Origin: Sphagnum magellanicum
Lineage: Eukaryota > Streptophyta > Sphagnopsida > Sphagnales > Sphagnaceae
Reading direction: 5' to 3'
NCBI GenBank assembly: GCA_021904315.1
Contig: CM038914.1
Coordinates: 17,471,065 to 17,535,064, forward strand
Length of the DNA stretch: 64,000 bases
The translations under genes and the position numbers were made by a program. Under the pieces are notes generated by a model that saw only the letters and a program-made list of their open reading frames with translations, was not told where the DNA came from and ran no database searches. Shown here one piece after another: positions 4,532 through 44,284 of this stretch (position 1 is its first letter; each line of letters starts with the position of its first letter).

Positions 4532-4724
4532 CGCTTGAAGTAGTTCTTGACGATGTCGAGATTATGAAAGTTCAGCACCCCGATATCGACCTGTACGTCC
4601 GGTCTGGGGATCCGTGTATGTCTGTGTATGTCCACCCATGCGGTCCTTGTGTTCCACCACAACCACGCTCTTCCCCAAGTCGAGTAGGCGAATGGCTGCA
4701 TAGGTGCCGGTCGAGCCGCCCCCA
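4532..4724 (-). pseudogene. FAD-dependent oxidoreductase, second half of the interrupted exon
   Basis: Minus-strand reading gives the rest of a Rossmann FAD-binding loop and following strand ([31 protein letters not shown]), then [17 protein letters not shown]. This pattern is typical of secreted amine-oxidase-like flavoproteins. The reading frame must shift by one base near 4586-4590, between TYTDPQTG and VDIGV, so this copy carries a frameshift or a sequence error. The exon probably ends at a GT donor (AAGCG|GTAGAG) at 4532. No later exons are recognisable down to base 1, so they lie outside the window or are lost. The segment is GC-rich, unlike its surroundings. The 5' half lies 39.6 kb away at 44285-44427 because a transposon sits between them. 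Confidence 0.85.
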
Positions 4725-4755
4725 CACAAGGGGGCCTGTGAGGAGGTCCCACATG
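4725..4755 (+). repeat. Left terminal inverted repeat of the giant transposon
   Basis: 31 bp starting CACAAGGGGGCCTG and ending GTCCCACATG. It is the reverse complement of 44252-44281 apart from one extra G in the G run. Immediately outside is the target duplication CCA (4722-4724). Confidence 0.95.
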
Positions 4756-5086
4756 TGAAAAGAAAAAGAATTCCCCATTAGATTACCATGTCATTTACAC
4801 TAATCAGGGAATGCAGACCATGAGGGATTAATGGCACAGTCCCCTATCCTTTCCCATTGATATTTTGATGGGGTAGAAAAGGTTAATTTCACATATCATA
4901 AAATCAAAACATTTGCCATGTTGATTTGCAAGTAAATGATGCAGGAATAACACAAAATATCCCACCCATTTTCACTAACAAATAATATTGTAAATGACAC
5001 TACATTCCCATGTAACAGAGGTGGAAAATTTCTATTTTATTTCACATCAAAAATTGGTACATATGGTTCTCTTCAACACCTAGCCA
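4756..5086. other. Left subterminal region of the transposon
   Basis: About 330 bp of AT-rich sequence inside the left end with no gene. Direct or inverted copies of a transposase-binding motif would be expected here in a CACTA element, but I cannot pick out a clear repeated motif by eye. Confidence 0.4.
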
Positions 5087-5817
5087 TCAAAATAACCTAT
5101 AGAAATAACCTAGGCGAGGTGACAACATTCTCTGATCATCCGGACGCTCAGCAGGACTCGCGCCATCCTCCTCTGAGGAACTTGAGTCCGAGCTTGAGAT
5201 TAGCGGGATGTTGTAATCCCTTGAAGTCCAGCCACCAGTAACCCTGCTCTTTATTCCATTCCAGTGTCTTGCTCTTGAACCATAGCCAGCTTCCATGCCG
5301 CCGCTGTGTTTCTGCAAGAGCCTCCTCCTCCGCTTCCTGCGCTTCGAGTACCTGCACCAGCTGCTGCTTTCCATCATGCAAAACGCCATCGCCATTTCCT
5401 TCTTCTTCAGTTTCTTCTTCGTTGTGACTGAGAATACTGCTCCTGTAAACGCATCTGGTTTTCAAGAAGCAGTTCCATGCGACGAATGATCTCTTGGCCG
5501 CTGCACTTGCGCGGCTCGCCGTAGCTGGAGCTACTCTTCCTCTGCTTGCAGCAGGAGACCACCGCATGTTGTGGGAGCTTATGAAACTGGACATTACAAG
5601 CCACAACTGAGCTTGCGCTGCGTCGTGGCTTGTAATGTCCAGTTTCATCAAGCTCAGCCACGATTTCTTCGCGATACTTGATGCTCAGCAATGGAGAAAG
5701 AGCTCGAGATTTCGAGTGATCGCTGCTGAGTACGACGAACTCCGACCTCGTGAATTTGGACTTGATCATCACAGAAGAAGCACCAGCAGAAGCAGCTCCT
5801 CTTTCCTTGGCCTGCAA
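5087..5817 (-). other. Low-complexity open frames, unidentified
   Basis: Two overlapping minus-strand frames are open here. One (5407-5817) contains RKCSGQEIIRRMELLLENQM, which looks helical; the other (5148-5651) continues with a Glu-rich run (EEETEEEGNGD). They could be joined only by a one-base shift, and neither has a good ATG at its 5' end. The composition is richer in GC than the surrounding element, suggesting a captured exon. I do not recognise the family. A 23-bp perfect hairpin lies inside. This may be a decayed captured fragment rather than a gene. Confidence 0.3.
5582..5647. repeat. Perfect 23-bp inverted repeat (hairpin)
   Basis: TGAAACTGGACATTACAAGC... at 5582-5604 is exactly complementary to 5625-5647 around a 20-nt loop. 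Pairing continues outward with one bulge (AGCTT/AAGCT). It lies in the otherwise coding-like GC-rich patch. Confidence 0.9.
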
Positions 5818-6107
5818 GCTTCAGATATCGGTACTGAGCTCGAAGGAGGAGTAAGAAGGCAGGTAACGCTTACGAGCTCCGAGGAGAAGATACTCGGAGT
5901 TTTGAAAGCTTTAGAAAAGAGAGAAGGAGCTCCCTTTCTTCTTCAACACGCACAGCAGCGGACGATCCATGACAGCCGGTTGTTTGCGGATCGCAGCAGG
6001 GAAACGAATGAGCGTAGAAGAAGAAGAAGAAGAAGCTGTAAAGTACTGCAAAACAGCGGATGCGGATTGCTGCGATGCTGCTTCTTATTCCTCCAGCAGT
6101 AACTCCT

Positions 6108-9100
6108 ATTATCAATCCCCAGAAAGACGACCTGATTCTCCCCAGATCCCCAGTTCAGCGTAAGCACACTGCTTGCATCACTGTTAAGTACATTTGTCAC
6201 AAGCATTCATCACAAGTGTAGGTATTCCCTTACCTCACACTGCAGGTAGTTGGCTGATGATTCAGAACCACCACCCATTGCCCCATTTGCTAGAGCATTT
6301 TTCCTTGGCCGAGCATCAGCAATATACAACTTCCTGTACATCACCAAAGCAGGTCCATCACTACACCTTCAGATGCAACACTAGGTCCTAGAAGAGTATG
6401 AAGATCTCTGCAGTGAAGTTGTGATCAATTATGACCAGCCCAGATTAATGCTAGTGCGGGAGAATCATGCATTATCCTCCGACTCACATAGCATCTACCC
6501 AATTGCAATCCTTCAGACACCTGATAGCCTGGTCTAAAATCAGATCAGCCTTACAGCATACAAGCACTGCTATAGACACTGCTGACAGGATACAAAGAGT
6601 GGAAGGAGACCTGTGCTGAGAGAAACCTGTGGAAGGAGGTGCACACAGGGCTGCAACCAGCTTCTCATCTGCATTACTGAGTGCCATAGAAAACACCAGG
6701 CCACTACATGTGAGCATCACATGACTAACAATTTGACCACAATTTACAATTCAACATCCCAAGAGAAAAAGAAGCAGCACCTAAACTGAGCTTTCTTCAA
6801 TCATCTTGCACCCTTCACTGGCATGATAGCCTTGCATCTGAGAGACTTGAGTTGTACCTGCGGGAGTTCATCATAATTCCAATCAAAGGCTGAGATGATC
6901 GAGCCAGAACAGCTCCATTTCCTGCAACACTACCTCAAATGTGAGTCTCCAGAATTTAACGAAAACAGCTAAAAGCTAACACAGAAAAGAAGCAATATCA
7001 CCAAATGCTTTCTGAGAACATACTTCCATCTTCATCTCAGCAGATTGCAAACACCAAATGCTGATGCAATGCAAAGATGAGAAGAGGGAATCACCTGGAT
7101 GTTGCCAGCAAAGAACTGGAAGTCTACCACGTGCCCTGAATGCAGCAGCTTGCTGTACCTCCTCATCACTGGAGGGCATAAAAGATCCAAAACACAAGGT
7201 AAAAATGTCAAGCACTTGCAAGTAGCTGCAAAAATTGCAATGCCCTAAAGGAATCATACTAACGTTTTGCAGACCAGCAAACTCTTAATTAGTGATCATG
7301 ATTGCATTCAGCATAAACATGATCCCCACTATTAGCCACCACAGTCATTGGTCTACTAATTGATATATAAGGCAATCACAATCGCTATTTCTCAAAGCTG
7401 CAAAAAAGGACCAAAAACAAGGTTAACAGGGCAACCTGAAAGAGGCCGGCATGACCAAGAGTGATGGATATGTGGGGCAAACATTGTAATTTGCATTCAC
7501 ATCAGAAAGTCGCCACTCACTCCGAATGTTTGAGTCACCAGCACTGGTATCAGTGCCAATTGTAGTGGCTGATATCATCCGCATATACTCTGCCCGCAAC
7601 CGTATGCGCGGATCCCTTCCATTGGGTAAATTAGTTGAGAATGCATACAATTCATAGAGTCGTGATGGCCTCATCAGATGGGTCAAAGCCTCATGCACGG
7701 TCCTTCTCTGCACATCAAAACATTCAGCACCAGTACACCAAGTCATGAACCCACTTGAAACTTGCTGTCCATACTCACTGTTGCCCACATCAGACCATGG
7801 AAACTAACTACAGTGCCACTGCCTCAAACCTGCAAATCCTACACCATAACTATCAAGTGCTTGTTGGAAGATTCCAATGCCCAACCAAAGCAGAATCTAC
7901 AACAAACAGTCTGCCAGGTGCAAGAGGAAATTTGTCCAGCATTAGAGCGCCACAGTTTGGTTTCTCCACACACTCAATTCTTCAACTACAGGGCAGCACT
8001 CAACCAATAGAAAGTGTTAAGCACACATTGCTACCAATCTGGAGAGAATATGCCATGAAGAGTTGCTGTCTAACCTGCCTTGTACATGGCCGAAACCCAA
8101 AAACAATTTATCGCATATCCTTCCCTTCACGCAGTTGACAACCAACAATCAGGGTCAAGGTTAGCAATCACAGTGTGTATACAACGATAGAGATCTATAG
8201 CATATCCTTCCCTTCACCCAGTTGACAACCAACAATCAGGCTCAAGTTTAGCAATCAACGATGATAGAGATCTATAGCTGAAATTGGTACTCAGTCCTGT
8301 TTAGTGTCCAGAGCATGAAATTCTTAGTCTTACCAGTTACATTGTACACTTAGCTTTGATGGTGGACCTTCCTAGGTGACCACTTTTAGTGAACACAACA
8401 CATGACACATTATTCCTCTGTAAGTGTGTATCAGGAGAGGATTCCATCCAATACTTTAGGCCCATAGCCCAGACAAGCACAGTTTTGACAAATAGACACA
8501 GTGATATCTCAGTTGTACAACCCTCAATATGGAAAGTTGAGGGAATGTGCACGATTCAATGTCCCAAAATTGAATGAAGTTAAACCAACTTCAGTCATGG
8601 GCAAAACATTGACAGAATGTAACATTGTATTGCTCTCAGCAAATGTGTCATGAACAGCTACTTCTGACTTTCCGAAAACAGCCAAGACAAGCCACACCAC
8701 ATTGCTTTACATTCTTATGTCTAGTATAAGATAAGAAGAATCCCCACCGACTATATGAAGCAGCCGACGGACAGGACGTAAGGGTGCTGCCCCTGGAATA
8801 CGAGATGCAGGTGGTGACTGCCCTAGATGCTGTTTCCACCCCAATACAGTACCTCATTGATAAGTTTTGTTGACTATCACAATAGTTACACCTGAAACAT
8901 CTCTGCTAAAGGGGAGGTCAGCAGTCTTCCATCCTTCCACCTGTTTCGTTCATGAGAACTTTTTCAAAGAATTAGAAAGCATTAGTGACTTTGAAGACAA
9001 CCAGAACTTGTAGTTCCTACTGCTTACCAGTTTGGTGAATTTTTCAATGGTAGCCAGGGGTATTGTCCCCAAGGGTACAAGCTGTTTTGCACCCTCCCCC

Positions 9101-9715
9101 TGCAAAGTGCAGCACATAACATAAGTAACCCTGGGCAAAGCAAGAGATGAAGGAGCTCTATGCCTATGACCTGCTTACAGAGAAGTTAAAAGAGAGATCT
9201 ACAGTTACTGATTCTAAAAACTGAGCACCTCATTGTCTCCAAGGGAATGACACTGGCCAAAAGAATCCCACAAAGTAGAGAAGTTTGGCATGATCCAGGT
9301 TAGAAGGAATGATAAGTCCAACAAATAACATGGTCCAAAGGCAGATAAAGCTAACCAGAAAAAGCAAGCGGAAATTTGTGACCAACAATAAGCCAGCTGC
9401 ATCAAGGTTCACCAGAACCACTGCCCTTCCCTGCACCCCTGTCTGTTGTTAATATCAATTCTTCAATCAGCAACACTCTTGTCTTAAACAATTTCATGCA
9501 CACATGCTTGACCTAGATTTTCATCCAAATTGAACCTACTTCGCAGAATTGACAACCAATTCATGAGGAAACTCCAGATACAAACCTCTGCCACAATTTG
9601 TTCTGCTGGAAGTAGAAATCCATCCAAGCTATGTGCCAATGAAACTGTCCCTGCCTGTCGCCCAAATTTCCTCTAAATCCTGACACTCTGTCCACAATAC
9701 CTTCCCATGCCTTTC
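6108..9715 (-). pseudogene. Captured plant myotubularin (PI3P phosphatase) fragment, 11 exons
   Basis: Splice-consistent minus-strand exons match plant myotubularins in order: 9715-9586 (LLPAEQIVAE), 9430-9356 (GLLLVTNFRLLFL), 9099-9028 (VPLGTIPLATIEKF), ~8850-8748 (RRLLHIV), 8124-8075 (GKDMR*IVFGFRP), 7707-7436 (RLYELYAF; YNVCPTYPSLLVMP), 7168-7095 (FRARGRLPVLCWQHPG), 6921-6858 (GAVLARSSQPLIGIMMNS), 6676-6611 (NADEKLVAALC), 6333-6234 (KLYIADARPRKNALANGAM) and 6131-6108 (VVFLGIDN). Donor, acceptor and codon phase agree at nearly every junction. The piece covers the GRAM/PH region and the start of the phosphatase domain, and stops before the catalytic CX5R loop. It has an in-frame stop (TAA at 8108-8110) and a likely frameshift in the first exon. 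It cannot encode an active phosphatase. Retained introns show DNA-level capture. Confidence 0.9.
8110..8257. repeat. Duplicated ~61-bp segment at a myotubularin exon edge
   Basis: 8110-8170 and 8197-8257 are near-identical (GCATATCCTTCCCTTCAC ... TTAGCAATCA). The duplicated block contains the 5' edge and acceptor of the exon ending at 8075, so one exon boundary exists twice. This is another sign that the gene fragment is decaying. Confidence 0.85.
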
Positions 9716-9880
9716 CTACATGACCTAACAATGCAAATCATGCAGCCTTACAATATTGCTATGACAATCACATAACCCTAGTATCAGGTTTGAAGAGGGA
9801 ACCAACTCTACAATGAAATTCACATGCTTGAACATTACGTGTTGCCGAGTGAGTCATGGTGGGACATGCCTAACAAACCC

Positions 9881-10565
9881 AATCTTAGGCCGGTTTCACA
9901 CAATGGAAACAGACCAAACAGCAGCTCAACATCAATTAGAATACTATTGGAGCCACCCACAACCATTCAGACAAGTACTGGAGCTACCTGCAAGCTATAC
10001 AGCAAACTCATGAAAAAGCCTGTGCTCAAACTCACCCAACCTGGATCTACATCCTACACATTGTGTTGGATCTGAACACAATTAATGAGAAGGGGCTGAT
10101 TGGTGTAAGGCTGTCCAAGGTTCAGATTTGTAATGCAAGAAAGGTCAAAACCATGGCTTTTTCTTCAACAAATGGCCAGAATATTTCTGAGATTTACAGT
10201 CTGACCTCCTTTATATAACTGAAGTCTATCACTTAGATTTGCATGTTTTGCTCACAATAATGCTGATTGCCTGCATATTGTCAGACACAAACAAACTTCA
10301 GAATGCAAGAAACCCAAAAAAAAAGGTTCACCAGTACCCTGAAAACTACAAAACCAGCATTGCTTACAATTGAGGAAAGGCAGCACAATGATGTCCAACA
10401 GCAGACCCACCTTTCAGAAACTTAAAAAGTTTTTACAAGAATCTTCAGACATGCACCTTATAACTATTTCAGCACCCAGTTGCAGATGTACATAGCTCAA
10501 ACCCCATGTCAAGTTTGTGAATATCATGTCCTCTAGCACATCCTGATTTCAATTGAACACAGTTG
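9881..10565 (+). repeat. Left arm of a ~680-bp internal inverted repeat
   Basis: Reads AATCTTAGGCCGGTTTCACA and onward to about CCTGATTTCAATTGAAC. The reverse complement is present at 43054-43729 with only scattered differences. The outer edge, TTA followed by GGCCGGTTTCACA, resembles Tourist/Harbinger termini and the MITE at 45011. The matching end in the other arm does not carry a direct TTA duplication, so a single element spanning both arms is not shown. Confidence 0.9.
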
Positions 10566-10757
10566 ATCTCTGGTCCAAAGTCCACCTCTAAAACAAGCTG
10601 CTCCAGTTCTGCACAAGTACTTATCAGGCAGCCACTACATAGCGTTATAGTGATCATGTAAATAGAAATTATCAATCTACAACAACAATTTTAGGCCTAG
10701 TTCTTTTCATTAACTTCTAACTTTTGAAGAAGGTAGGAATGGTTCTCACCTTCAGAG

Positions 10758-12134
10758 CTAACCATGAGCATTCATTATGTCTTGCCATATCCATTCAGTA
10801 GGTTCCCCATTGTGATGGTGAGTAACTTGGGCATCATCCAAAATTCTTTCAATAGAATGCCAAGACCTGGTGCTTGTAATGCCAGAGGCCCTGTACCTCT
10901 TGAAGGTTCCACGCACCCGCCCATAAACTTCCAACATGCCCAAGCACACCATACCCACAAAGTAATCTTGTTGCATGAGTGGCCCTACTGCAATGGCTTT
11001 CCTCTTGCTTTCTTCTTCTACCTGAGAATCAGTTGTAAATGTTGGTGTAGACACACTCCTCACTACTGCCATGGAGAAGGACCTGTCACTGCTGTTCCTA
11101 ACTATCACCGCATCCCCAACTTCTGGATAAGGAGGGCAGCGGCCAGGCATCCCTAGCTGAAACAAATGGCCACTCGGGGAAACATCCTCTAACTCATAAG
11201 CTAAAAGAATCCCATTATTCTGCCCTACCAAAGGTATCGGAATGAATTTGTGCATCAGAAGGTGAGCTGGTTTGATGTCATTCCCAGGCCACTGTTGTGG
11301 ATGTGGTTGTAAAACAACCATGCCAGTACAGCTGTGTTGGAGAGCCACAGAAGATGATGATGCTGATGATGCTGTGTTGTAGTACTTGCCTTGGAAAAAA
11401 ACTCTCATGTCACCATAGAATTCATGGATGAAAAATTGGGTGATTTTGGCCTTCCATGTCCACCTGTGCCCTTCGTATGGCTCATCAGGCTCAACAACCA
11501 CTGAATCACCAACACAAAATTCCTTTCCATGCCTCATCCAAAATGAGAATCCTTGAACTGAAGTCTGAAAAAGTGCTGAATTTTCAGTGGTCATGATCCC
11601 CATGGTGGTCCAAAAACATTGTAAGTACGAGATTGTGTTTTCTGAGATTGCTGCTTTGATGCCAATCTTCCTACCCACAATTATGCCCTTCTGTAGTAAA
11701 ACTTGCTTACATGAGCATGTTGGCAACCAGTGCACCAATTTGGAAATTGCTCGAGCTATTTCCTGAGAAGGCACAACCACCACACATGCTTCATGCCACT
11801 GCTCACAAACTGTCAAATCTTGGTCCATCACACGATGGACATCTGTGGGCAGATGAAGATATTTGTGAACCTCTTTCAAAGCTCTTCCACCCAGGAATAG
11901 ACCGTCATTGTCTAGTTGCATAGCTTTATGGATCTTTGTGAAAATCTGCCTAGCATAGTAGCTAGTGTAAGTGACTTCACTTGTCTTTTGATTGGATGAA
12001 ATGTTGACAACTCTGGAAATTTCCCTTTCAAAAGGGTAACACCAAAATATATCGTGACAACCGTGCCTCTCCACATCATCTAGAAGCTCTCCGCTCCCTG
12101 TGTGCCCGAACACAAAGTTCCATAGATTATATTC
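10758..12134 (-). CDS. TNP2-like transposase, C-terminal exon with BAH-like module
   Basis: An intact ~458-codon exon opens after an acceptor at 12134 (TTGCAG|GAATATAATC) and ends with TAG at 10758-10760. The first part (GELLDDVERHG, FWCYPFEREISRVV) corresponds to the conserved Tyr-Pro-(F/M)-E-R stretch after the catalytic core in TNP2-type transposases. Further along, FCVGDSVVVEPDEPYEGHRW followed by a beta-rich segment looks like a BAH/Tudor-type reader fold, and a second module follows (PPYPEVGDAVIVRNSSDRSF). Its phase does not match the donor of the exon ending at 14810, so at least one exon between them is unassigned. No stops or frameshifts are seen. The BAH-like assignment is by pattern only. 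Confidence 0.75.
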   Translation of the reverse strand, partial: EYNLWNFVFGHTGSGELLDDVERHGCHDIFWCYPFEREISRVVNISSNQKTSEVTYTSYYARQIFTKIHKAMQLDNDGLFLGGRALKEVHKYLHLPTDVHRVMDQDLTVCEQWHEACVVVVPSQEIARAISKLVHWLPTCSCKQVLLQKGIIVGRKIGIKAAISENTISYLQCFWTTMGIMTTENSALFQTSVQGFSFWMRHGKEFCVGDSVVVEPDEPYEGHRWTWKAKITQFFIHEFYGDMRVFFQGKYYNTASSASSSSVALQHSCTGMVVLQPHPQQWPGNDIKPAHLLMHKFIPIPLVGQNNGILLAYELEDVSPSGHLFQLGMPGRCPPYPEVGDAVIVRNSSDRSFSMAVVRSVSTPTFTTDSQVEEESKRKAIAVGPLMQQDYFVGMVCLGMLEVYGRVRGTFKRYRASGITSTRSWHSIERILDDAQVTHHHNGEPTEWIWQDIMNAHG

Positions 12135-14696
12135 CTGCAATATGCTTTTGCAGTGACAGAACTCATAATAAAAACACACTCTATGGACTAGTTTCACAAA
12201 ATGAAATATCAATGGTCCTAAGACTTTAATTTTCAATTTTGTAATATAGCTAAGCTATCAATTAGCCATAAATCAGCTGGTTGCATCAATATCATTGAAT
12301 TCTTGGAAATCAATATCATGTATCATGAAAATGAAATGAATTACTGATGGTTAGATTTTGATTCTTGACCCATTTGCAACTGGGCTACAATACACAGAGA
12401 TTCCTGTAATAGAATCTCGGCCATCTATTGAACCCCTGAGAGTCTAGACAGAAAAAAATGGTGGGCTTTTCGAATTGACCTTTAACTACTAATCCATCAG
12501 AAACAACTCTGACAGACCAAACCTGGTAGAATACCACACTGCAGAGATAATGAAAACTATGCTGACCACACAGTGAACCCTCAACAGTCCTCATGGTTTT
12601 TGCAATCTTCAAGGTTTGTGGATTTTTCTGGAAGAATCTGCAGTCCCCAAGAGCTGTGATACAACACAGCCACTTGTGAACAAAGGGTTTATCAAACATG
12701 TACCAAACAAAGACACAACAGATTGCAAACAATATCAAGTAACAAAAAAAAATTGCAGTCTGCAAGCAGGATTTATTGACCAACAAGTAACAAATGCCAA
12801 CGAAGGAAATTATAGTATGAATTGGTGAAAACTACTGATCTACATATCAAAAGCAGAAACATTATCCAACGACCAGACACAGCAAACATAATTGTGGTTT
12901 CTATTTTTTTGCAGTGCTCCAAAGATGAAATGTCCATCCTATCCCTTCAGACTAGGTCCACCAATCTCCCCAACCAGCATAGAAGGACATAAACCCAACA
13001 AACAAGAAATTTGAAAAAACACTGATGCATGGTCTCTTGCATCGCAAGAACATTCAGTTCATTCACATGTGCAGCCATGGAGAAAGTCTGCAATCTGCAC
13101 AGACACTGGATTTCTGGTGCCTTTGCATCCAATTGGAGCTATTGCCTCCTTTGTAGATCGGCAGCTACCTTCTTGTACCATGCGGGAGCATCTATGAGGC
13201 CTTAGTCTTCCCAATCAGAAACTAAAAGTAAGACATATCCTGTATAACAGTTTCAGCAAGCTAGGAGTTGAATTTGATACTCAATCGACAATGCTCAAGT
13301 GGCAACTTCGATGAACTACTTAACCTGATGATGATTAAGAATGTTGAAACCTGAGATAAAGACCACCAGATTGACATTGCATTATGCCCAAAATGACCAA
13401 GGGTGGTGGCTAACAAAAGCATTGCACCACCTGCACTTCTGCAACCAGATTGTACTGAGGTGAATGCACCTTTGCAACCAGTTTGAGCCGACATGAAATG
13501 TCCAATAGAAATCTTCTATGTTGATTCTTTGCCCCCCAAAAAAACCCTAGAGACCTTTCCTCATCTTTAGCAGCAGCAAACACAGTGCCCCAGATTCTCC
13601 CCTTCCAAAAGCAAAATGAGCTACCGGCCATGTCAAAATGCCCAACAATTTGGACAAGATCACATCTGTTTAGAAATCAAGCGAAAAAAATAGGTTCCAA
13701 AAATTCACTTGTACCAAAAGCACCACTACAAGCATATCCTAGGAACCTTCCCCAGACATCACAACAGACGGTCTTCACTGATAACAATAATGGAGGATGC
13801 ACACATCTACAAAATTGCAGACCAATCTCCAGAACAACAATCTGAAGGTAATATGACATGAATGCACACATGCAAAGGAAGAAGGAGATCTGTGAACAAA
13901 CAATCGTAGCTGCTACAGGTGAGAAATAAAGTTAATGTTTTTTCAAAGTTTTTCTTTTTGTTATTTTCTACCCAATTGAAACTTAGTACAAAAACCAGCT
14001 ACATTCGACTGATGATCACCAACCTGCTCCTCCTGCAAGGAAGTCTGGTACAGCTCCTCATGACATGAAGAGCTGCACCCCAGCTGCTGGCATACCCATG
14101 GCTGCAGCAAGTGGGTTCAGGCTAGCAGCAGCAGCATGAGCAGCTGATCAGGAGGATCAACAGCAGTTCCAATTGCAAGTTCTAGATCATTTTCTGGACA
14201 AGCTGCTTAAATTCATTCCCAGAAGAAAACGTTCTTGCAAGCCCAAATTGCAGAAAGTGCTTGAGATCAAGGCACTAGGGATGATGATGACTCTTCCTAA
14301 AGTAGCTGCTACTGTGGCAAGCACTTCGGCTACTGTCACCAAACCTCAGGACAGTACTAAAAGCTGCAGCAGGTAAGTAGACTTCTTCTTCACTTGGTTA
14401 CATCAACAACATGCACTATTGCCAAAGATCAGCCAGCTGCTGTTGCCTGCTTATTTATTGTTCAAATTTCACTGAAGCTCCGGAACAATCATGTCTACTG
14501 ACAGTCAGATCTTCTATTGCATGATCATTGACATCTTTTGATCTGCTTACCAAAACTGCAGATCCAACATCATGGAGCTCCAGGTGCATCATCAGCAGAG
14601 CTTCAAATCCAGCACGAGTCTGTATTTGGCAAACAAGATGAATTCTTTGTGCATACCCACAAGGTACAAAATCTTCCCACCATCACGGAAGCTTGT
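12135..14696. other. Transposase intron region, nothing assigned
   Basis: About 2.6 kb between two transposase exons. A 133-codon minus frame (12385-12786) and a short plus-strand frame (14173-14376) are open, but neither shows a recognisable domain. A small linking transposase exon must lie somewhere here if the flanking exon phases are to agree; I could not identify it. Confidence 0.4.
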
Positions 14697-14772
14697 TTAC
14701 GGTTTAGGATTCAGGGTTTGGGGAACCTTTATGATTCAGGGTTTAAGGTTAGGGTTCAGGGTTTGCAATCTT
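14697..14772 (+). repeat. Degenerate telomere-like repeats
   Basis: A run of variants of the plant telomere unit (GGTTTAGG, TTCAGGGTTT, GGTTAGGGTTCAGGGTTT) occurs within one short stretch just downstream of a transposase exon. It is too irregular to be functional telomere and may be chance enrichment or an old interstitial patch. Confidence 0.45.
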
Positions 14773-14809
14773 TCAAAAAGACTTATATGAGATTTGGCAA
14801 CTAGAAAAC

Positions 14810-16010
14810 CTGCAAAACATCTTGCCATCATTTTCAAAAGAAATGTTGTCACCTTAACACTAGATAGCCCAAAAAAAACAGCCTTAGAATGAATACCTGC
14901 AACATGCTCCAACGGAGATGAGTTGGGCCCAACACTTTCCTCCAAGCGCACACGCCATGCTGCTAATAATTCTCGAGCATTCTGCCTGCTTTGAAAAGTC
15001 CAGCCATAGCTTCGGCTATGGGTGTAAAATAGCCTTCCTACCTCAGTGAGCACCGCACCTATCCCACCCAAAATGGAGTCCAAGCCCAAATCTAAATGAT
15101 CTAAGACATGTGGTAAGCACCACATAACAAAGATTTGGTACTCTTCGGCCTTATAAAATCCTAGAGATTCTGCACTCCTAGGCCACCTTGCTCCAAGTCT
15201 GGCTGGACTCAAATTCTTCACAGTTTGTAATGCACCATCCAAATCCTTTATCTTCCCATTTCTTGCAGCATATTTGACCAACATGTGGACATATTTTTTA
15301 AAGACACACAATGATAAAGTGTGCATCACATCATATGTGAGGTCCTGAGAAATGTCAAAGCCATACAAATTGTACAGCCTCCAAAGACATGATTGGCCTG
15401 AAATGCCCGCTTCATGACCAACCTCATCCCTTTCCCTGCCAATTGGAAGTTCCTGCCACTGCTTCAATGCGAATGTCATGTCTGTTACACATCGCATGGC
15501 AGATGGATGCCTCCTATGTTTTCTATTGTCATGATATTCCACCAAACCCTTATTGCCGGATCGAGCACGCCATCTTGATATAACATAGTGACGTCGACAC
15601 CCAGAATACCCCCCACTTTTCACTGCCCCCACTTTACATTGGGCAGGATGATCACCGGTCCATACCATCACTATGGCCCGCAAAGTAGCCAAACCGGAAG
15701 GCAAATCATCAAACATGCATTCACTAATTAATTCTATAGGATATGCATACTGGACCGGGAATCCATCTACAAACACCCTTTCTAAGTCTGTCATGAGAGG
15801 TTTTAAAAATGCTGTCAACACGTGGGGGTCAGCTTGTTTGATTATTTTTTCTGAACTTGATGGAATGAACATAATAGGAATAGGATCTAATGTGTTTTCT
15901 CTCCCACAATTCAGTATGCTCAAATCCACTGTCCAACAATTCTTCAAACTTGTCTTTGCGGAAGAAAATCCATCCCAATGAAACATCAACCCAAAATTCC
16001 GCGGATCGCC
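14810..16010 (-). CDS. TNP2-like transposase, central catalytic-region exon
   Basis: A ~400-codon intact exon opens at an acceptor (TTTGTAG|GGCGATCC, 16010) and ends at a donor (TTTTGCAG|GTTTTC, 14810). It contains GLMFHWDGFSSA, then ADPHVLTAFLKPLMTDLERV, IVMVWTGDHPAQCKVG, SGGYSGCRRHYV and LTYDVMHTLSLCVF. This is the order of conserved blocks of the TNP2/Transposase_21 family (target-DNA cleavage in CACTA elements); the D of TGDHPA and the D and H of YDVMH sit where the family has conserved acids and His. Later blocks include RWPRSAESLGFYKAEEY and YGWTFQSRQNARELL. No stop interrupts it, so this transposase region is well preserved. Confidence 0.85.
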
Positions 16011-33940: not shown

Positions 33941-34391
33941 CTTGATCACTTATACTTCAGCAAGAATATAATATCCCGAGGAGGAGCAACTTCTTACAGC
34001 AGCAAGCAAGATCAAGACTCCCCGATGAGTCTTCTGTGTATCTAAGAACTTCTGATCTTACAGTAAGTCTGGATTACAGCTCTGGCGGAGCAAGAACAGC
34101 AGCTTCAGCTTCAACGGAAGTCTTACAAAGAGGAGAGCACATTGCAGGCATTCACAGGGGACCTAGAGCAGATCGCTGGCAAATAATCAGAACTAGTGAT
34201 GATGAAACCTTTACAAACTTATGCTAAATGAGATAATTCCTTTTTTATGGAGTTCTTTTGGCGATGGAGAATTTTTTTGTCTATGGAGATAAAATTGTTT
34301 TGAGATTTTAGTTGGTTTTAGTTTTCACTGTCATAATCAGAAGTAATGAAGACGAGCAAATAGAGAACTGACTTATTTTGTTTGCTTGCAG

Positions 34392-37300
34392 ATGAGTACC
34401 AAGGTGACCTTTGTGAACAAACACAATGAAGATCAAACCTTCAAGGTAAATTTGTTTGGGCCAAACAAGAACCGTGTGAAAGTTAGCAATGTCTTGGCGA
34501 TATTCAAGGCAACTGTCGCCATCATGTCTGATGGCAGCATGATGGAAGCAGATGACCTTGGATTGAGCATGGACTGCTTTGATTCTGGATCAAGGCATGA
34601 TATCATTCTCATTCCGGCTTTGGATCCAGGTATTTTTTTAAAATTTTGTTTTATAAATTTATCAGTCCTATTTTTGGTTTAGAGTTTGTCTTTGAATATT
34701 AAGTTTGCATAAACCCTAAAGTGACATACTTTGAACATGGTTATTCATTATGGATGAGACCTTGAGGTCAATTCCTATTGATTTATTTTTTATAGAGAGC
34801 TTGTTTACCTCCAAAACTTAGTTTCTTGTAGGATTGTGGGGTCACAGTGTCAGAGTTGTGTGGAATACCAATCCCCAGCGAGGGTGGTATTGAGCATCAG
34901 GCAGGACCAAGTTCAAGGAAGTGTGATGACATTTCTCACAGACCTATGCAGCATAACCACCAAACGCCAATTGCTACCTCTGATATGTTGTTCAAGCCAG
35001 GCATATTTCCTCCATCTGTTGTTTTCTTGAACCCTAAATGTGCCTTGTGCTACCTCTGATATGTTGTTCAAGCTAGGCATATTTCTTCCATTGTTGCTTT
35101 TTTGAACCCTAAATGTGCCTTGTGGGATTGCCCAAGGCCTGCTCAAGGAAGCAATGAGGGGTTAGTATACTGCAACAGTTTCCATGAAGAATTAGCACTG
35201 AGTGAAGGCACTCCAGGCATGTGCCCAGTGCTGAGACCAGGTAGGATTGACTTAAAGGATTGTCCTCTATTTGCAGCATTAACAGCTCGTGTCAATGGGC
35301 GAGCTATTGGTATTCCAGAATTGCATGGGGCTGCCACTTCCAAGACGCCTTGGAATGCTACAGGTAAACCCTATTCCTTTTCTAAATTTTGTGCTGCTGG
35401 TTGCTCAATTTGCTCAGAGCTATGCCATTTCAGCCTTTATTTTAGGGTTCTTTCAATAACCCTGAACCCACTTTGCAAGGATAAAGCCATTTGTGTTTTT
35501 TGGAGCAATAGGCTTGGTTCTTTCTGTCTTTGCAGTTCAACCAGAGTCATAGAAAATAACTCAATCCACAATGTACAGTGATGCATGTAAGCATATGTAC
35601 ATAATTTGGGCATGTAAGTATAGATATTGATTAGTAGTTGCATTTGCAGAAATTGCAGAATATCAGTCTAAAGAGAAGGATGTTGAAAAGTGCATCAAAG
35701 TTGATCACTCCATTGCAAAGAAAAAGAAGCAAGACAACTGCACTACTGATGCACAATTCACAATGTACGACAAGATTTTCAAAAAAAAACCGAACACAGT
35801 GTCTATGGAATGGGGTAGAGATTTCCTTAGGATTTTTCACCCCCTCCAATGGAAGGTGCACAACCGAAATTTGTGCATGGTGCGTTCATGGTTTAATGAT
35901 ACAAAAGATGAAAAAGTTAATGTTTTTCTGAATGCTAATCTACGGGAGCAAAAAGAGGTGGTCCACATTGTGAAACAGTTTATATCAGACCGTGAGCCAA
36001 CATTGGCAGCCCTTTTATTCATGGAAAATGGCACCACTACATGTATGCGTTGGAAGGTGGAAGACATCTATGAATGGTACAAAGAACATAAACACTACAT
36101 TTCAAACAAAGTAGAAAAGGTGAGACTGACCAACAAGTTGGTTTCTTTTCTTTTCTTCCAAGTTTTACAATTTCCATTGCTAGGTGGGTTGTCTAGAATA
36201 AAGATTTGAGCCATTTTTTTTTCATAATTGTTTTTTCTTGGTTTGGAGATTTTGGACTTCTTTTCATGCACTCTATGATGTCTTGCAGACTACAAGTGGT
36301 GGCATACATGAACCTCTAGGGCAAAGTTTTGCAAGTCGTGCAAGGAAAGGAGCCATAACATCTGCCGCAAGTGCATCTAACAACAGACCCTTGCAACTAA
36401 ATGCAGGGATTTCAAAGCTTGATATGGTAAGTTGGAAGAATAATGTTTTTTCTTTAGTGGAGGTAGGCCTGAGGGCTCAAAACGCAATCTACATTTTCGG
36501 AGTGCCACGTGGCATCATTTAAAACACTTTCAAAGAAAAGCTGAAGGTGACTAACTAGTCATCAGTGTAGGTGCCATAAGTTGGCCAGGGTGAACCAACA
36601 CCCATGTTGGTACCTTGATCTTTTTGAGTGAGGCCTCTTAGTGGCCATATTAAGCCTAAAAAATGTCAAATCTGAACTCAGACACCCTGATTTAGTCTTA
36701 GCATGGGATATTTGTAATGTTTTGAGATAATTTAAATGGACTAACTTGGGTTCACCCAAAGGCTCTCAAGTCACTATGCCCTCGTTGGCTGATGGAATAT
36801 CATTGAAACTACTTAATAGCTAGATGGGAATTTGAAAAAGTTTGTCAGAGTTGCACAAGAAGTCCAAGACCATATAATTCACAGGGCTTTTGTGAAAATC
36901 CCCTCCGATCTCATTTGTATCATTGAATCCATAAGAGACATGTCTGTGGACATCAGTTGCAAAAGCGTCCAGGTGTTGAAGAAGACTTATGTATGCCAGT
37001 GATTTTGCAGCTGCTGCTGGCTTGTTTATCCCCTCCCCCCCCCGTGTAGTAGGTTAAGTAGTATTTAGTTTTCTGGTCAACTTGGTCTACAATGTTAGAA
37101 AACAACAGTCTGTTAAGATCTTGTAAATAGTCCAACTGTTCCAAATTTGTATTGTTCTTTTTTCCAAGTCTCATATTGTGACTAGGAATCATTCAATGTG
37201 TTCGTAGTTGCTGGAAACAACAGGCTATGTGAAATTTTGGACTTCTTCTCACACACTCATGCACTGCCTGATGTTGTTGATGTTGTGCAGATTGCAAACG

Positions 37301-38696
37301 TTGAGTGTGACACACAAGATCATTATGATGATCAACATCACAACCAACACCCGAGCCATGAAGAGGTAGGGCACATCCTGTAGCAGACAAAAGGACCTAG
37401 GCGATCATTTTCCAACAAACTCATAGCTCCAAGGCTGCCTCTAGGGCAAATTTCTGCAAACCATGTGCACGGAAACAATTCTTGCCATGATGCAAGCAAA
37501 GAGGCTAGCATTGCTACCACAAGAGCACCTAGTAGCAAAGCCTTGCAATTCAATGCAGGGATACCAAAACGCAAGGCTCATTCGGTGAGTTGGAAGAGTT
37601 TTGTTTTGTTTTTTTTTCCCTGAAATATTTTGGATTTGCAAAAGCCCTTTAATGTTCATGATAGATTAATTAGATTTCAAGATTCTAGGTTACTTAAAGA
37701 TTCTAGACTTCTTTTAAAACAGTCCCTGGATTAATTAGACCTCAAGATTCTAAGTAACAACAGAAAGTTAAACTACTTAAAGATTCTGGACTTCTTTTAA
37801 AACAGTCACTGGATTAATTAGATTTCAAGATTCTACATTACAATAGAAAGTTAAACTACTTAAAGATTCTGGACTTCTTTTAAAACAGTCCCTGGTATCA
37901 TACAGATTGTAACCATTGTGTGTGACACACAAGATCATTCTGATGATCAACATCATGAGTGTCATGATGGGCTCCAAGGATCAAGTTCTACACGGATACG
38001 TGTTCCATCACAAAAAGCTTTGTAAGTTAATTTGGATTTCTAGGGTAGATTTAGATTTCAATTGTAATTTCAGTTATCTTTGTTTATGTATTGTTGTTTT
38101 CCAATATTGTCACTAATAGGTACCTATCAATATATAAAATGTAACGTGATTGTAGGTTGTCAATTGAGGCAAAGCCGGAAAGAAAGAAGAAAAAAAGTGT
38201 ATTTGAAGAACTTCCAGTGAGAATGGCCACCACCCCAAACACAATACTCCAAGTAAGAACTCTACATTATATTTTGTTTATGACTTGGTTATTCCAAAAT
38301 GTTCCTTCAAGTTTAGGGTTTTGTTGAGCATTGGGGTTTTGGTTTATTTGAGGTGCCTGTAGTAATTTGACATGTCTCCTTTTGAAACTTCTGCTTCAGG
38401 GAGTTTGTTTTGAAAACCTTTCAGTAAGTGCCAAGAAGACCATTGCAATGGTCGCCATGGATTTGGACAATGTCCATGATGTGGTGTCAAATATTTCTAA
38501 GTTTGCTGCCACGATTTTTGCTGATTTGTTCAACCGCAAAGGAAAAGAAGAAAACAATGGCAATACGAGAATGGAGCATTTGGACAGAGTGGTAGCCTGG
38601 GCATTAAAAGAGTTCAAAGTAGGAATAGTTGACTTACCTGCAGTGGAGAAGGATGGAGTCCAGAATCTGTTCCTACAGAATGTCAGAAAGTTGTGA
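34392..38696 (+). CDS. Seven-exon gene of unknown function, possible element accessory protein
   Basis: Exons join in phase: 34392-34629 (ATG at the acceptor; STKVTFVNKHNEDQTF), 35650-36119, 36289-36426, 37291-37365, 37906-38021, 38156-38252 and 38400-38696 (TGA). All junctions have AG/GT, and lengths of 238, 470, 138, 75, 116, 97 and 297 bp keep one frame, giving roughly 475 residues. The second exon is best conserved-looking (EWGRDFLRIFHPLQWKVHNR, EDIYEWYKEHKHYI). Exons 4 and 5 are duplicates of each other (CDTQDHYDDQHH / CDTQDHSDDQHH), and a decayed copy of exon 3 lies at 37383-37587. I recognise no family. Intron 1 holds a VOZ fragment. An intact frame in a decaying neighbourhood suggests selection, so a transposition accessory role is possible but unproven. 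Confidence 0.6.
34832..35363 (+). pseudogene. Captured VOZ transcription-factor zinc-domain exon
   Basis: Flanked by an acceptor (CTTGTAG|GATTGT) and a donor (GCTACAG|GTAAAC). The 3' part reads NPKCALWDCPRPAQGS, YCNSFHEELALSEGTPGM, PVLRPGRIDLKDCPLFAAL and KTPWNAT, the start of the VOZ (vascular plant one zinc finger) domain with its Cys/Cys/Cys/His ligands. Upstream is ISHRPMQHNHQTPIATSDML. A 76-bp segment (34973-35048) is duplicated at 35049-35123; the copy has lost one base and brings in a TGA at 35057-35059, so the exon cannot be read through. The C-terminal half of the VOZ domain is missing. It lies in intron 1 of the seven-exon gene; its donor phase matches that gene's second exon, its acceptor phase does not match the first. 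Confidence 0.9.
36469..36538 (+). repeat. Dispersed ~70-bp repeat, copy 1
   Basis: GGAGGTAGGCCTGAGGGCTC ... GTGCCACGTGGCATCATTT is repeated at 43730-43808 in the same orientation with few changes. Here it lies in an intron just after the exon ending at 36426. Family unknown. Confidence 0.85.
37652..37893 (+). repeat. 83-bp tandem repeat, three copies
   Basis: CTTAAAGATTCTGGACTTC starts at 37693, 37776 and 37859 (period 83), with GGATTAATTAGATTTCAAGA between. It fills the intron between exons 4 and 5 of the seven-exon gene and may mark the event that duplicated those exons. Confidence 0.88.
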
Positions 38697-39021
38697 ACAA
38701 TCGGATAACAACTTGAGGATGAGATAGAAACAAGTAAACATGAATGTCCAAAATAACAATGTAATTTTGCAAGCATTTTGTTCCTCAAATCCACAGCAGC
38801 TGCAAATCCATAGACCCCCATACTTGCCTCTGATTTCTCCCCCCTCTCATTTTATTTTTCTCTTCTCCTTTCTACTTCTTGTTTGCAAGGTCTTCCATGG
38901 TTTGGTTTTCAACTGTGTGAATTTCTCTGATCTGTGTTGCTCTTGTTGCTGCATTTCTGTGTGTTAATCTGTTGTTTTTGTTGTTGTTGAGTCCAGAATG
39001 CTTGTTGTTTTGGAAGGGCAG

Positions 39022-42000
39022 TCCTTCTCAGCCACTGCAATCTCAGGCAGTGAAACCACGTATAACTACACCACCTAGTAAAGAGAAGACTGCTCTAGGA
39101 CGGGCTGCATCAGCCTCAACTTATTCACCAAAAAAACTAGACATGAACAGCAAAAAAGCAGACAAAGAAGTATCTTTGACAAAGAGTGCAACAGCCAAAT
39201 CTGTTAAAGTGCAGGGTGATTCAGTTGTAATTGGAAGACCAAAACAGAACCAGAGTGTGAAGCTTCATGCAACACGGAAATTGGTTGCTGGAGATAACAG
39301 CTGCCTCCCCACATCCAGTGATATGTTGACTTCATCAAAACCTGGTCAGTTGCCTGTGTACACCTGGTTTTTGTTGTATGGCTTTGTATTTGTGAGCTGG
39401 AGACCCCTAAGCAATGGTAAGAACTGTGCTTTTCAGGTTATGGGGGTCAACAAAACTGTTGACGCTTTGGAAGGGAAAGTCTCTGTAGTAATGATGAATG
39501 GACTCTGAGAGATTGAGAAGGCTTGTACTATTTAAATCTCACATTCACTTTGCAGATCTTGTCTTTGCAAGTAGCTCTCTTTTACTCTCTTTGTAGTATT
39601 CATTGTAGCTGGTGAATACCTCCCAGCCCTATGTACAACTTAACCTGGAGACTCACGAAATGTTTGCATTCTTCACAGACCTCGGAGGGAGCTTGATTTC
39701 TGAACCCTTGGCAAGTGAAGACTCAACAAGGCCAGAGATGGAGTCAGTAGAGGTGCCAGTTTATAGTGAAGGGGAGCCTGAGGAATTGATATCCATGGAA
39801 GTTGACCATGCTGAAGATGAGCAGCTGCACCTGCCTATATTGGACACAGAGGAGAAAACTGCAGCAGTTTCTACAGACTTGCAACCAAGCCTTGAGTATG
39901 CACAGGAGGAACCCTCTGTGCATAGGTTGAAGTCAGACACAAGTTTTGGACAAAACAACGATATCTCAAATTACTTGCCCTCAGAGGAAGAAAGCAATCC
40001 ACAGGTGAATCTTGAGGCTCTGCATAGTTCAGATACAGAACTTACTTCAGCACCCCTAACTTCTTTGATGCCACCTTCTTTCCAAGGGATTCATGTGGAG
40101 CAAGAGGGACAAGTGGCCAGACCAGATTATGACTTTGCAGGTTGCCCACCCTCAGAGGAAGTCACAGAGTTTGAAGAAATCCAGGAAGGTCTGGAGAGTG
40201 CAGACACTGATGAAAGCAAGTTCACTCTCCAAACTTTACAGATCCCTTTGGACCTGTCTGGTCAGAAGCAAGGTTTGAATGATACTGATGTTGAGAATGC
40301 AGTTGTCAGTACAATGAATCATCTCTCAACTTGCGAGCTCCCTGATAATGCCAGCAGTGCACAGAAACACCAAGTTGACCTACACGTTGCAGACACTAGG
40401 AGAAGTGCATCAACTTGTGCAATCTCTTCAGAGTCATCAGCTTTTAAGCTGGCTGGTGCACAGGAAGAGATGTTCAGCAGACCAGCCATCTCAGAGGAGT
40501 TGAGAGTGAGCAGAAAGGACATCCTAACTGGGTTCTCCTCTGAAGTCTTTAGTTCTCCTGAGGTATCTCATACTCCCATAACCCAGCAGGAATTTGGCAA
40601 GATAGATGCCAGCAACAATGCAGTAGCTACTTTCCAGCAAGAAGTCGTGGGGTTACCTTCAGACACACCTCTTGAATGGTCAACTACATTTGATGTTGAT
40701 GAGGATCATGATATGAGCAGAGACCTTAATAAAGCAGGTTCTTTATGTGTGGCATTCATGCCAAATTTGGTGTGCCTTTCAGCTGAGGACAGTGGAAGTG
40801 GGGGTGATGTTAACCAGAATTTGACTGCAGCCACAAGGCAGAATGACTTGCTTTACCCAAGTAAAGATGTAGAATCTCATATAGATGTGGATCTCCTGGA
40901 GCATGATTCACATGAATTGAGGACTGGCACTACAGGATTTCCTCTTGATGCTTTGCATGAAGTCATTTTACCTCTTGATAATGACCAGGAAACTTACAAG
41001 AACCAGCTGTACACTTTTCACTCAGCAACTTTAATAGATTCATTTGATGGTTTTCATGATGTTACTTCAGAACAGACAACAGCTTCTTCTATTTGTACCC
41101 AGGAAACTGGCATTCAAGCTGGAACTTCTGTTTTGGCACAACAACCTGAGCAGGGTCTGGAGGAAGCACCACCTATCACCAATGCCAATCAGGAACTGAG
41201 TGCAAGTATGGGGATGACTCCCATCATGTTTAATATATCACCTGCTTTGGACACATCTCCTGAGCTTTGTAATTCATCTCCTGTGCTTTCTGCTAAACAA
41301 GAGTGTGAAGCTACTTCAGATTCAACTGCATCATTTTTCAAGGAGACATGGAGTTCATCTGATGATGAAGGGGCAGCTAAGATCAGCAAGGAGCTAACCT
41401 CTTTTGCATCAGATGCTGGGGATGCCAACTTCCTCACTTTTTCTGGTGAAACTGCCAACAAGGATCTTGGAGAGGCTGCAGACATCCAAGATGAAAGTTG
41501 TCAGGACTCTGTCACTAGGGTGATGGATCATAACAGAAGTGTGGAACTCCTGGATTGCCTGAAATCTGAAAAAGGCCACTCATCAAGAGTCCAAGAAGTA
41601 TTAGAAGGAGTGACCAAAGATCCTGAGAATTGTAAATTTGCAGAGGAAGCAACACACAGTGTGGATGAGAAGAGCACCGATTGTCTGCTTCTGGAACCAC
41701 TGAACTGCCCAAAATCTGACAATGAGACTTCACCAAAAATCCAAGAGATATCAGAAGAAGGGTTGACCAACATTCCTGACAAGGGTGCATGTGCAGAGAA
41801 AGCTAGACACAGGTTGGATGAAGGGATCACTCACAGTCTGCCTCAGGAACCTCTGGATTGCCTAGAGAATTGTACTTCACCAGAACTCCAAGAATTATCA
41901 GTAGAAGTATTGACATCTATTGCAGAAAAAGCAGTTGCATGTGCAGAGGAAGCTAGACAAACTGTGGATGAAGGGAGCACACTTTCTCTGCTTTTGGAAC

Positions 42001-42704
42001 CACTGGATTGCCCAAAGTCGGAAAATGCCACTTCAAAAAATATCCAAGAAGTATCAGACAACGGGTTGACCAACATTGCTGAGAATGGTGCACGTGCAGA
42101 TGAAGCTGGACATGGTGTGAATGAAGGGAGAAAAGCAGGTCTGGTTCAGGAACTACTGAATTCTAGAAACGGCACTTCACTGAAAATCAAAGAAGTATCA
42201 GAAGAAGGGGTAATCAACACTCCTGAAAAAGGTACATGTGCAGAGGAAGCTACAGACAGTGTTGGTGAAGGGATCACACCCTGTCTGCTTCAGGAACACC
42301 TGCATTGCCAAAAATCTGGAAACAACATTTCACTAGAATCTCAGGAAGTATCAGAAGGAGTGACCATCACTCTTGAGAATGGCACCTGTGCACCAGAGAC
42401 TGCACACAGTGTCGATGAAGGAAGCACAACATCTCTGTTTAAGGAATCAAGTTTGATTCCTGTGGAGATGGAAGTCAGGGCACCAGTAGTATTTGCTGAG
42501 GACATACTTAGAGAGACTGGGTCAGCAGTCCAGAAGGACCTGATCCCAGCTGATGGTGGAGAACCCACCAAGGAGGTGCCACACACCACAGGAGATGTAA
42601 AGGCTCCAGCTCCTGCAGCAGGAAATGTACAGCCTTTGCATGTTGACACCCAGGCTGAAGCTGTAGCGGTTGGCCTCCATCAAGAACTGGGTGGTGATGA
42701 AAAG
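39022..42704 (+). CDS. Acidic repeat-rich protein gene, 5' end missing, unknown
   Basis: Two exons fit: 39022-39344 (KPRITTPPSKEKTALGRAA; Lys/Ser-rich, basic) and 39679-42704 (over 1,000 codons, uninterrupted), joined in phase (CCTG|AC). The second ends at a donor (GATGAAAAG|GTGAGA). No in-frame ATG opens the first exon, so an earlier exon is missing or unrecognised. The long exon is acidic and disordered-looking. Its C-terminal third (about 41520-42440) holds roughly seven diverged copies of a ~50-residue unit with the pattern EPLDCPKSEN..S..IQEVSEEG..N...., A(E)EA.HSVDEG. No stop occurs in 3 kb, unusual for non-functional DNA. Family not recognised; it could be a captured host gene or an element protein. 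Confidence 0.6.
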
Positions 42705-43053
42705 GTGAGAAATTATTTCTTTGCCATAAAATACTGGGAACCTACCGGGAACAAGCAAGTGTGTGCTGCTGTTGCTGCTTCATTGCGATGTCATCCCACA
42801 TGAATATATCATATCTGACGTATACAGGTCATCCCACATGAATATGAATGGGGTTAGTGAGCAGCTATGACAGAAAAAGAAGGGGGAAAAATCATCAATG
42901 CTGGTGAGTTACATTGCACTCTCCAGATGACACACATGTTACTAGATCTCTTGAGAACTGGAGGAGTGTGGATACTGTACTGCTGTGTATATTATGTACA
43001 GAAAGCGCACAAGCTTTTCCCAAAGTTCTTTACGTGTAACTTGGACACAGTTG
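42705..43053. other. Spacer between repeat-protein exon and inverted-repeat arm
   Basis: About 350 bp with no gene seen. A 24-bp segment including GTCATCCCACATGAATAT occurs twice (about 42788 and 42828). Confidence 0.5.
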
Positions 43054-43729
43054 GTTCAATTGAAATCAGGATGTGCTAGAGGACATGATATTCACAAACT
43101 TGACATGGGGTTTGAGCTATGTACATCTGCAACTGGGTGCTGAAATAGTTATAAGGTGCATGTCTGAAGATTCTTGTAAAAACTTTTTAAGTTTCTGAAA
43201 GGTGGGTCTGCTGTTGGACATCATGGTGCTGCCTTTCCTCAATTGTAAGCAATGCTGGTTTTGTAGTTTTCAGGGTACTGGTGAACCTGTTTTTTTGGGT
43301 TTCTTGCATTCTGAAGTTTGTTTGTGTCTGACAATATGCAGGCAATCATCATTATTGTGAGCAAAACATGCAAATCTAAGTGATAGACTTCAGTTATATA
43401 AAGGAGGTCAGACTGAAAATCTCAGAAATATTCTGGCCATTTGTTGAAGAAAAAGCCATGGTTTTGACCTTTCTTGCATTACAAATCTGAATCTTGGACA
43501 ACCTTACACCACTCAGCCCCTTCTAATAAATTGCATTCAGATCCAACACAATGTGTAGGATGTAGATCCAGGTTGGGTGAGTTTGAGCACAGGCTTTTGC
43601 ATGAGTTTGCTGTATAGCTTGCAGGTAGCTCCAGTACTTGTCTGAATGGTTGTGGGTGGCTCCAATAGTATTCTAATTGATGTTGAGCTACTGTTTGGTC
43701 TGTTTCCATTGTGAAACCGGCCTAAGATT
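43054..43729 (-). repeat. Right arm of the ~680-bp internal inverted repeat
   Basis: Reverse complement of 9881-10565 over its whole length. Its outer edge (TTGTGAAACCGGCCTAAGATT) sits 552 bp from the right end of the transposon, while the left arm sits 5.2 kb from the left end. The arms are about 32.5 kb apart. Confidence 0.92.
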
Positions 43730-43808
43730 GGAGGTAGGCCTGAGGGTTCAAAACGCAATCTGAAATTTCAGAGTGCCATGTGGCATCATTTCAAACACTT
43801 CCAAAGTA
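43730..43808 (+). repeat. Dispersed ~75-bp repeat, copy 2
   Basis: Direct repeat of 36469-36538 (GGAGGTAGGCCTGAGGGTTC ... GTGCCATGTGGCATCATTT). It begins exactly where the inverted-repeat arm ends, suggesting the arm inserted into, or was joined to, this repeat. Confidence 0.85.
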
Positions 43809-44251
43809 AAGAATTTTTTTTCTTGTTGCCTTTCTTTCACAGCACTTGAATTATTCTGTTGTAAGTATATGAAAAATACTTAGTTACATTTTCCATTAAA
43901 ATTTTTAATACCTTTCATAATATTGGCCGCTAGGCTTACCTCCACTCCAGGTCCCAAAAGGGATCAACTAGTTGAAAATCTGGCGAGTGCAAAACCAACA
44001 AAAAACTCTTGTTGACCATAATTCTGCTCTCATACTTTAGTTGGAATGTGCATGTATTTGTAATACAGTGATGCATTGAGCATTGATCGATTACCATATA
44101 TCATTACATGGTTTTTTCCCTTGTATATTTCCTCATCTTTCCATAAATTCAGTTTTTCACTCATCTTTTCCCACATCTCAACTAGAATTGTTGTTTTTCC
44201 CTCATTGCAGAAAACTTGAGATGGTAAATAGTTCAATTTTCCCCTTGTGGC

Positions 44252-44281
44252 CATGTGGGACCTCCTCACAGGCCCCTTGTG
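44252..44281 (-). repeat. Right terminal inverted repeat of the giant transposon
   Basis: 30 bp, complementary to 4725-4755. The target copy CCA follows at 44282-44284. A second CACAAGGGG (minus strand, 44241-44249) lies just inside, a possible subterminal binding motif. Confidence 0.95.
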
Positions 44282-44284
44282 CCA

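Follow-up and report, generated by a model that had tools for sequence, protein, structure and literature searches.

Among large plant transposons of the CACTA (En/Spm) kind, Candystripe1 of sorghum measures about 23 kb. Tgmt* of soybean, a putative autonomous CACTA element, is 20.5 kb long (PMC2613891). Here we analyse a window of 64,000 nucleotides of moss DNA in which an element of 39,557 bp splits a flavin amine-oxidase-like gene; very probably it is a giant DNA transposon that moves by cut and paste in the manner of CACTA (En/Spm) elements, with a transposase of the TNP2 type. Coordinates are positions in this window unless another locus is named. Copies of the element are named after the contig that carries them (C8, C3, C5 and C1), C8 being the copy in the window, and the genome searched for copies and for sources of captured DNA comprised 438,994,042 bases.

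In its published description, Tgmt* resembles the C8 element in being a CACTA-type insertion in a host gene, in its multi-exon gene for a TNP2-type transposase, in its 3-bp target-site duplication and in its unusual size, but it is about half as long, has imperfect 13-bp CACTA ends and asymmetric subterminal repeats, and is inserted in an intron. An earlier description of the window made from its letters alone, called here the sequence-only reading, had put the element at about twice the length of large known plant CACTA elements, which fits the 20.5-kb soybean element (PMC2613891). A literature search for large or giant CACTA elements and for such elements with CACAA ends brought up none above 20.5 kb in the open literature, beyond which larger ones may exist. 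The enlarged En/Spm elements of the red alga Chondrus crispus (16-20 kb; PMC6431247, citing Kojima et al. 2013) are likewise large and carry additional open reading frames (ORFs), but they are smaller than the C8 element and red-algal. Animal elements of the SmTRC1 type are placed in the CACTA superfamily without starting with CACTA, as is the case here, but have CCC ends and 2-bp duplications (PMC1636069).

Gene capture by CACTA elements is already known. On wheat chromosome 3B 140 capture events have been counted (PMC4290129), and host gene fragments that may give rise to chimeric genes are described, as in the C8 element, for Pack-CACTA elements and CACTA captures in wheat and other plants (PMC4290129, PMC8903248). 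Pack-TYPE elements are described as non-autonomous, whereas the C8 element combines captures with an uninterrupted transposase; it shares with Pack-CACTA elements the host fragments between its ends, and the absence of a transposase that also defines them is found in C5 but not in C8. What is new is that such a size, an uninterrupted transposase, located captures and an older relative that lacks the captures come together in one genome. As a rule, cut-and-paste transposons are taken to become less efficient as their size grows. With an element of ~40 kb that has an uninterrupted transposase and near-identical sisters, it becomes possible to test up to what size TNP2-type transposition works. 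It also represents a large-cargo mobile element in a moss. CACTA is the most abundant classified repeat type (6.8%) in the genome paper on the likely Sphagnum host (PMC9946827).

Ends, empty site and transposase

The two termini form terminal inverted repeats (TIRs) in which 30 of 31 columns are identical when the left repeat is aligned with the reverse complement of the right one, the left one carrying one additional G. Alignment of both ends thereby bears out the inverted repeats flanked by CCA that the sequence-only reading had described, together with its variant CACAA terminus: the ends of the C8 and C5 copies start with CACAAGGGG, the terminus being CACAAG. Used as a query, the left end was recovered at 100% identity in locus L002 to the left of the window, at 99% in the C5 copy and at 100% over the aligned part of the C3 copy.

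The host sequence outside the element is one minus-strand exon of the flavin amine-oxidase-like gene, the point of insertion lying in the exon that binds flavin adenine dinucleotide. The 545-amino-acid frame of a paralogue of this gene matches PF01593 (E 1.4e-14), and the interrupted gene probably encodes an oxidase. When the element and one CCA are removed, the joined flanks restore the frame through GGGSTG, just as had been proposed. A 1-bp insertion at 4590 disrupts the rejoined frame further on; where the left flank is assembled a second time, this insertion is missing. At L009 (2230-5302), ~35-38 kb to the left of the window, lies a tandem paralogue without interruption, which is 93% identical to the left host flank and 88% and 94% identical to the right one. 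At the insertion point this paralogue reads GCCGCCCCCGACGATG and the occupied copy GCCGCCCCCA, element, CCAACGATG, i.e. a single CCG versus a CCA on either side of the element. Since the paralogue is empty at this point, the site before insertion carried one CCA, which gives a duplication of 3 bp and an element of 39,557 bp. With window positions 4301-4600 as query, further partial matches to the host gene were found on contigs C8 and C16, and the split gene therefore probably belongs to a small family. Three findings support the sequence-only reading that one transposon spans the 39.6 kb: the empty site in the paralogue, the two sister copies that are nearly identical to it, and the uninterrupted transposase inside. 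The captured pieces, the nested repeats, the internal inversion and the assembly fault at the left edge, all treated below, go beyond what that reading had described.

In C8 the frame of this transposase covers 1205 amino acids in three exons without interruption. Searches of its exons against Pfam gave no meaningful match, and its tie to the TNP2 type comes through homologues only: PF02992 was matched at E 0.01 by 21 of the 30 aligned proteins and is carried by homologue P0007, which is 46% identical to the query. The AlphaFold model of the catalytic core (mean predicted local distance difference test score 76.5) matches the RAG1 fold, and the core is predicted to be of the DDE RNase-H-like kind. 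Its candidate triad would be D401, D508 and E745, corresponding to D13, D120 and E357 of exon 2, which are conserved in 28/28, 30/30 and 26/26 of the aligned rows with a letter at these positions. The structure comparison against the PDB listed no CACTA transposase, and we know of no solved one that could serve for comparison. Intron 1 of the transposase gene contains an ORF (18024-18725) that has no Pfam match; its motif GIPMGTNCAV resembles Penelope-like reverse transcriptases.

Sister copies and captured host DNA

A 21-bp core of the TIR, allowing up to two mismatches, occurs 20 times in the 439 Mb, against no occurrence of the reversed control. Of these matches, 18 lie in sequence resembling an element end, although in five cases the resemblance is only ~76%; the remaining two (L028, L029) do not. 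A single left end, assembled twice, probably accounts for two of the 18. The five diverged right-end-like sequences (L027, L030, L031, L033 and L034; ~76%) are spread over four contigs and have identical flanking bases, so another repeat seems to contain an element end that was copied with it. A further family copy is present at C6:20.98 Mb, its left end falling outside the 500 bp inspected.

Four copies were read at both ends (C8, C5, C3 and C1), and a perfect target duplication is present in two of them, CCA in C8 and AGG in C5. The C5 copy (26,202 bp) is collinear with C8 at 96-99.7% identity per block and represents a deletion derivative without a counterpart of window 10644-21994; a tblastn search of it with the transposase found none. 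The C3 copy is nearly full-length (38,495 bp), and comparison of three of its blocks with C8 gave substitution levels of 0.29%, 0.76% and 0.51%. The C1 copy (47,978 bp) is rearranged and 85-95% identical where it aligns to the element. The C8 and C5 copies share their ends, the captured pieces and several nested repeats, and no match to the C8 region is seen in the flanks of C5; the large unit has therefore moved as one block.

Between the TIRs lie two 3.7-kb pieces of host DNA whose source loci were located at 95-98% identity (Table 1), and a third piece, at 94%, was probably captured as well. The way in which these pieces were acquired can be read base by base, because the two source loci are in the same genome and the older C1 copy shows the prior state. 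Capture 1 has no match in the C1 copy and contains a myotubularin-like exon (ORF 7426-7803, minus strand, E 1.8e-8); at its 6107 border the sequence TATT is common to the element, the source and C1. Capture 2 includes 84 bases without counterpart in its source, and at its border C1 is continuous where C8 lost ~18 bp and gained the capture. Most of a 1064-codon ORF (39609-42800) is formed by capture 2, in which it begins; the final residues (GNKQVCAAVAASLRCHPT) are encoded by DNA of the element, of which C1 has a similar form. A database protein of 1048 amino acids (P0053) is 99% identical to the product of this ORF and has an identical tail. In C8 and C3 this ORF is uninterrupted, in C5 it is broken, and its product gave no meaningful match in Pfam.

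Short fragments of the capture 2 gene are also found in older copies (L023, L024, L026 and C1) at 83-88% identity, with one 49-bp piece at 96%; in L023, L024 and L026 they lie ~1.3 kb from the right end. These fragments make two or more captures of this gene probable, and such repeated capture of one gene was perhaps seeded by homology.

The interior of C8 is flipped relative to C1, the transposase gene and a second gene region being oriented oppositely to the ends, and the strands of the matches on C6, C7 and C18 agree with the interior orientation of C1. The flipped block in C8 is bordered by two inverted 680-bp duplicates that are 97.8% identical, of which only one copy aligned in C1; we read them as a segment duplicated at the inversion breakpoints. 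Capture 1 adjoins the first of these duplicates and capture 2 ends ~0.3 kb from the other.

In the mechanism that we propose, the transposase would bind the ~31-bp ends, excise the ~38-kb unit through its predicted DDE RNase-H-like active site and insert it with a 3-bp stagger. The element would have grown when copies of host DNA from distant loci filled its internal breaks, which were probably gaps remaining after excision repair had failed. Filling of this kind would have produced the two 3.7-kb pieces with a located source, the probable third one and the internal inversion bordered by the duplicated 680-bp segment. The enlarged element now resides at three places.

Competing explanations

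A number of observations weigh against the view of the element as a giant CACTA-like transposon. Its TIRs begin with CACAAG and lack the CACTA start, and short-word counts, in which no subterminal repeat array stood out, revealed the terminal motif just once more, close to the right end. The transposase query exon alone had no Pfam match at E 1 or at E 0.01, and the ratio of nonsynonymous to synonymous substitution rates between the C8 and C3 transposases is ~0.65 (7 synonymous and 17 nonsynonymous differences), which gives no clear signal of selection. Two of the copies are also irregular. C3 (ends L039/L016 and L015) is without the outermost bases on both sides and without a target duplication, and for these reasons may have landed by end joining; the borders of C1, AAC and CAC, make an imperfect duplication (2/3 bases). 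The search of the assembly for TIR pairs with 3-bp duplications, proposed by the sequence-only reading, was thus answered by the perfect AGG of C5 but not by C3 or, in full, by C1. Of the features of CACTA elements, the 3-bp duplication and, via its homologues, the TNP2-type transposase are present, but the canonical end motif is not. Because this motif is lacking, the element is classed as CACTA-like and not as a canonical CACTA element; we treat it as a variant of the broader TNP2 group, for which different end motifs have been accepted.

One could instead place it in a separate DDE lineage nearer to RAG and Transib. Transib and RAG make 5-bp target-site duplications, whereas the empty site shows 3 bp here, and the homologues of the transposase carry the TNP2 domain PF02992. 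A survey moreover sets Transposase_21 and RAG1 in different RNase-H-like clades (PMC3985635), and we regard such a placement as quite improbable. A composite origin, in which the left and right ends belong to two tandem elements that trapped ordinary chromosome between them, would have a precedent in the tandem-array route to Pack-CACTA hybrids outlined in a review (PMC13317346) and would fit the host gene pieces and repeats in the interior. It is contradicted by the absence of any internal copy of the TIR core in the C8 element at up to two mismatches and by the C5 and C3 copies, both of which have these ends and captures and several of the nested repeats, C5 with a further perfect duplication. 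For the present unit we give this explanation hardly any credence, but it may apply to an ancestor.

The left edge of the window has to be considered for a further alternative, a tandem arrangement of ~67 kb made of a partial or second copy with host flank, ~10 kb of unknown sequence and then the complete element. A run of 10,000 N (L012) lies directly left of the window. Beyond it, window 4530-17919 recurs at positions 16613-29998 of the joined region (13,390 columns), so that the assembly contains the left junction at two places 27.9 kb from each other and repeats 13.4 kb. The repeat, which stops 2 bp short of the N run, shows no substitutions and four 1-bp indels, all absent from the left copy, and this speaks against two copies in tandem. 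The downstream part of the host gene is in the left copy (L002), and the window carries only ~190 bp of it. At 1389-4530 the window reproduces, in a noisy form, the flank to the left of the C3 copy (99.1% identity, with 4 substitutions and 22 gap runs, all of these in the window copy), which again argues against the tandem arrangement; window 1-4530 is probably a misassembled contig tip derived from that flank. Because the repeat is free of substitutions and stops 2 bp before the N run, and because 1389-4530 is such a noisy copy, unmerged contig ends together with a misassembled tip provide the simplest reading of the left edge, and we consider the tandem arrangement unlikely. For the same reasons, window 1-4530 was rejected as native flank and the second left junction, 27.9 kb upstream, was rejected as biology.

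A single giant CACTA-like transposon thus remains by far the best explanation. A more far-reaching version of it is that the element is autonomous and still competent, with one transposase of RAG1-like core acting on CACA ends and moving ~38-40 kb, and that it enlarged itself as host genes were copied into breaks within it, with one of these captures giving a chimeric host-element protein of ~1,000 residues that travels with it. This we put forward tentatively, with more doubt than conviction.

Probable second gene region and further repeats

Table 1. Features of the window, with the evidence or comparison behind each
Feature	Position	Strand	Evidence and remarks
Not part of the locus as given	1..4530		Probable tip from left flank of C3 copy; 1389-4530 tested
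Short piece of host flavin amine-oxidase-like gene left of element	4531..4721	-	Complete downstream part in L002/L010
Left target-site duplication CCA	4722..4724	+	Single CCG in empty paralogue
Whole element	4725..44281		39,557 bp; TIR pair, CCA duplication, empty paralogous site, sister copies
Left TIR, CACAAGGGGGCC...	4725..4755	+	
Captured host DNA 1	6107..9868		Source C3:5129752-5133474; 95-97% identity
680-bp inverted duplicate, copy 1	9879..10558	+	Rearrangement junction
Transposase exon 3 with stop codon	10758..12097	-	tblastn of full-length homologues
Transposase exon 2, predicted catalytic core	14897..16010	-	Homologues, PF02992 in 21 of the 30 aligned proteins, RAG1-like predicted fold, splice sites
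Transposase exon 1	19747..20910	-	388 codons, Cys/His-rich N-terminus; tblastn of full-length homologues, GT donor
Nested multicopy repeat	21747..25461		Common to C3 copy, mostly to C5
920-bp nested repeat	25862..26782		C8 only, among C8, C3 and C5
Probable captured host DNA 3	26782..28489		Matches C2:3181650-3183376; 94% identity; common to C3 and C5 copies
~0.9-kb nested repeat	28589..29483		C8 only, among C8, C3 and C5
Second family-conserved region	34180..39016	+	Blocks ~34180-34828, 35615-36444, 37231-39016
Nested multicopy repeat in second gene region	36454..37241		Inside blocks common to C3 and C5
Captured host DNA 2	39017..42744	+	Source C5:7989618-7993262; 98% and 96% identity
680-bp inverted duplicate, copy 2	43054..43731	-	
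Right TIR	44252..44281	-	
Right target-site duplication CCA	44282..44284	+	
5′ coding end of same flavin amine-oxidase-like gene (MEIIVRYLLML...DVCIVG)	44282..44427	-	

The second family-conserved region is probably another gene of the element. Its blocks are kept at ~80-95% identity in places on C1, C2, C3, C5, C6, C7, C15 and C18. The exons tried from it had no match in Pfam, and a role like that of TNPA is a guess.

To the right of the element, window 52492-64000 is occupied by a repeat family in tandem (copies ~83% identical); members of this family are nested within the C1 element too and, partially, within that of C3, and the nested repeat held by the C1 copy is of this kind. Between the element and this array, a 48-bp tandem repeat at 46606-47119 comprises 10.8 copies with 92% matches.
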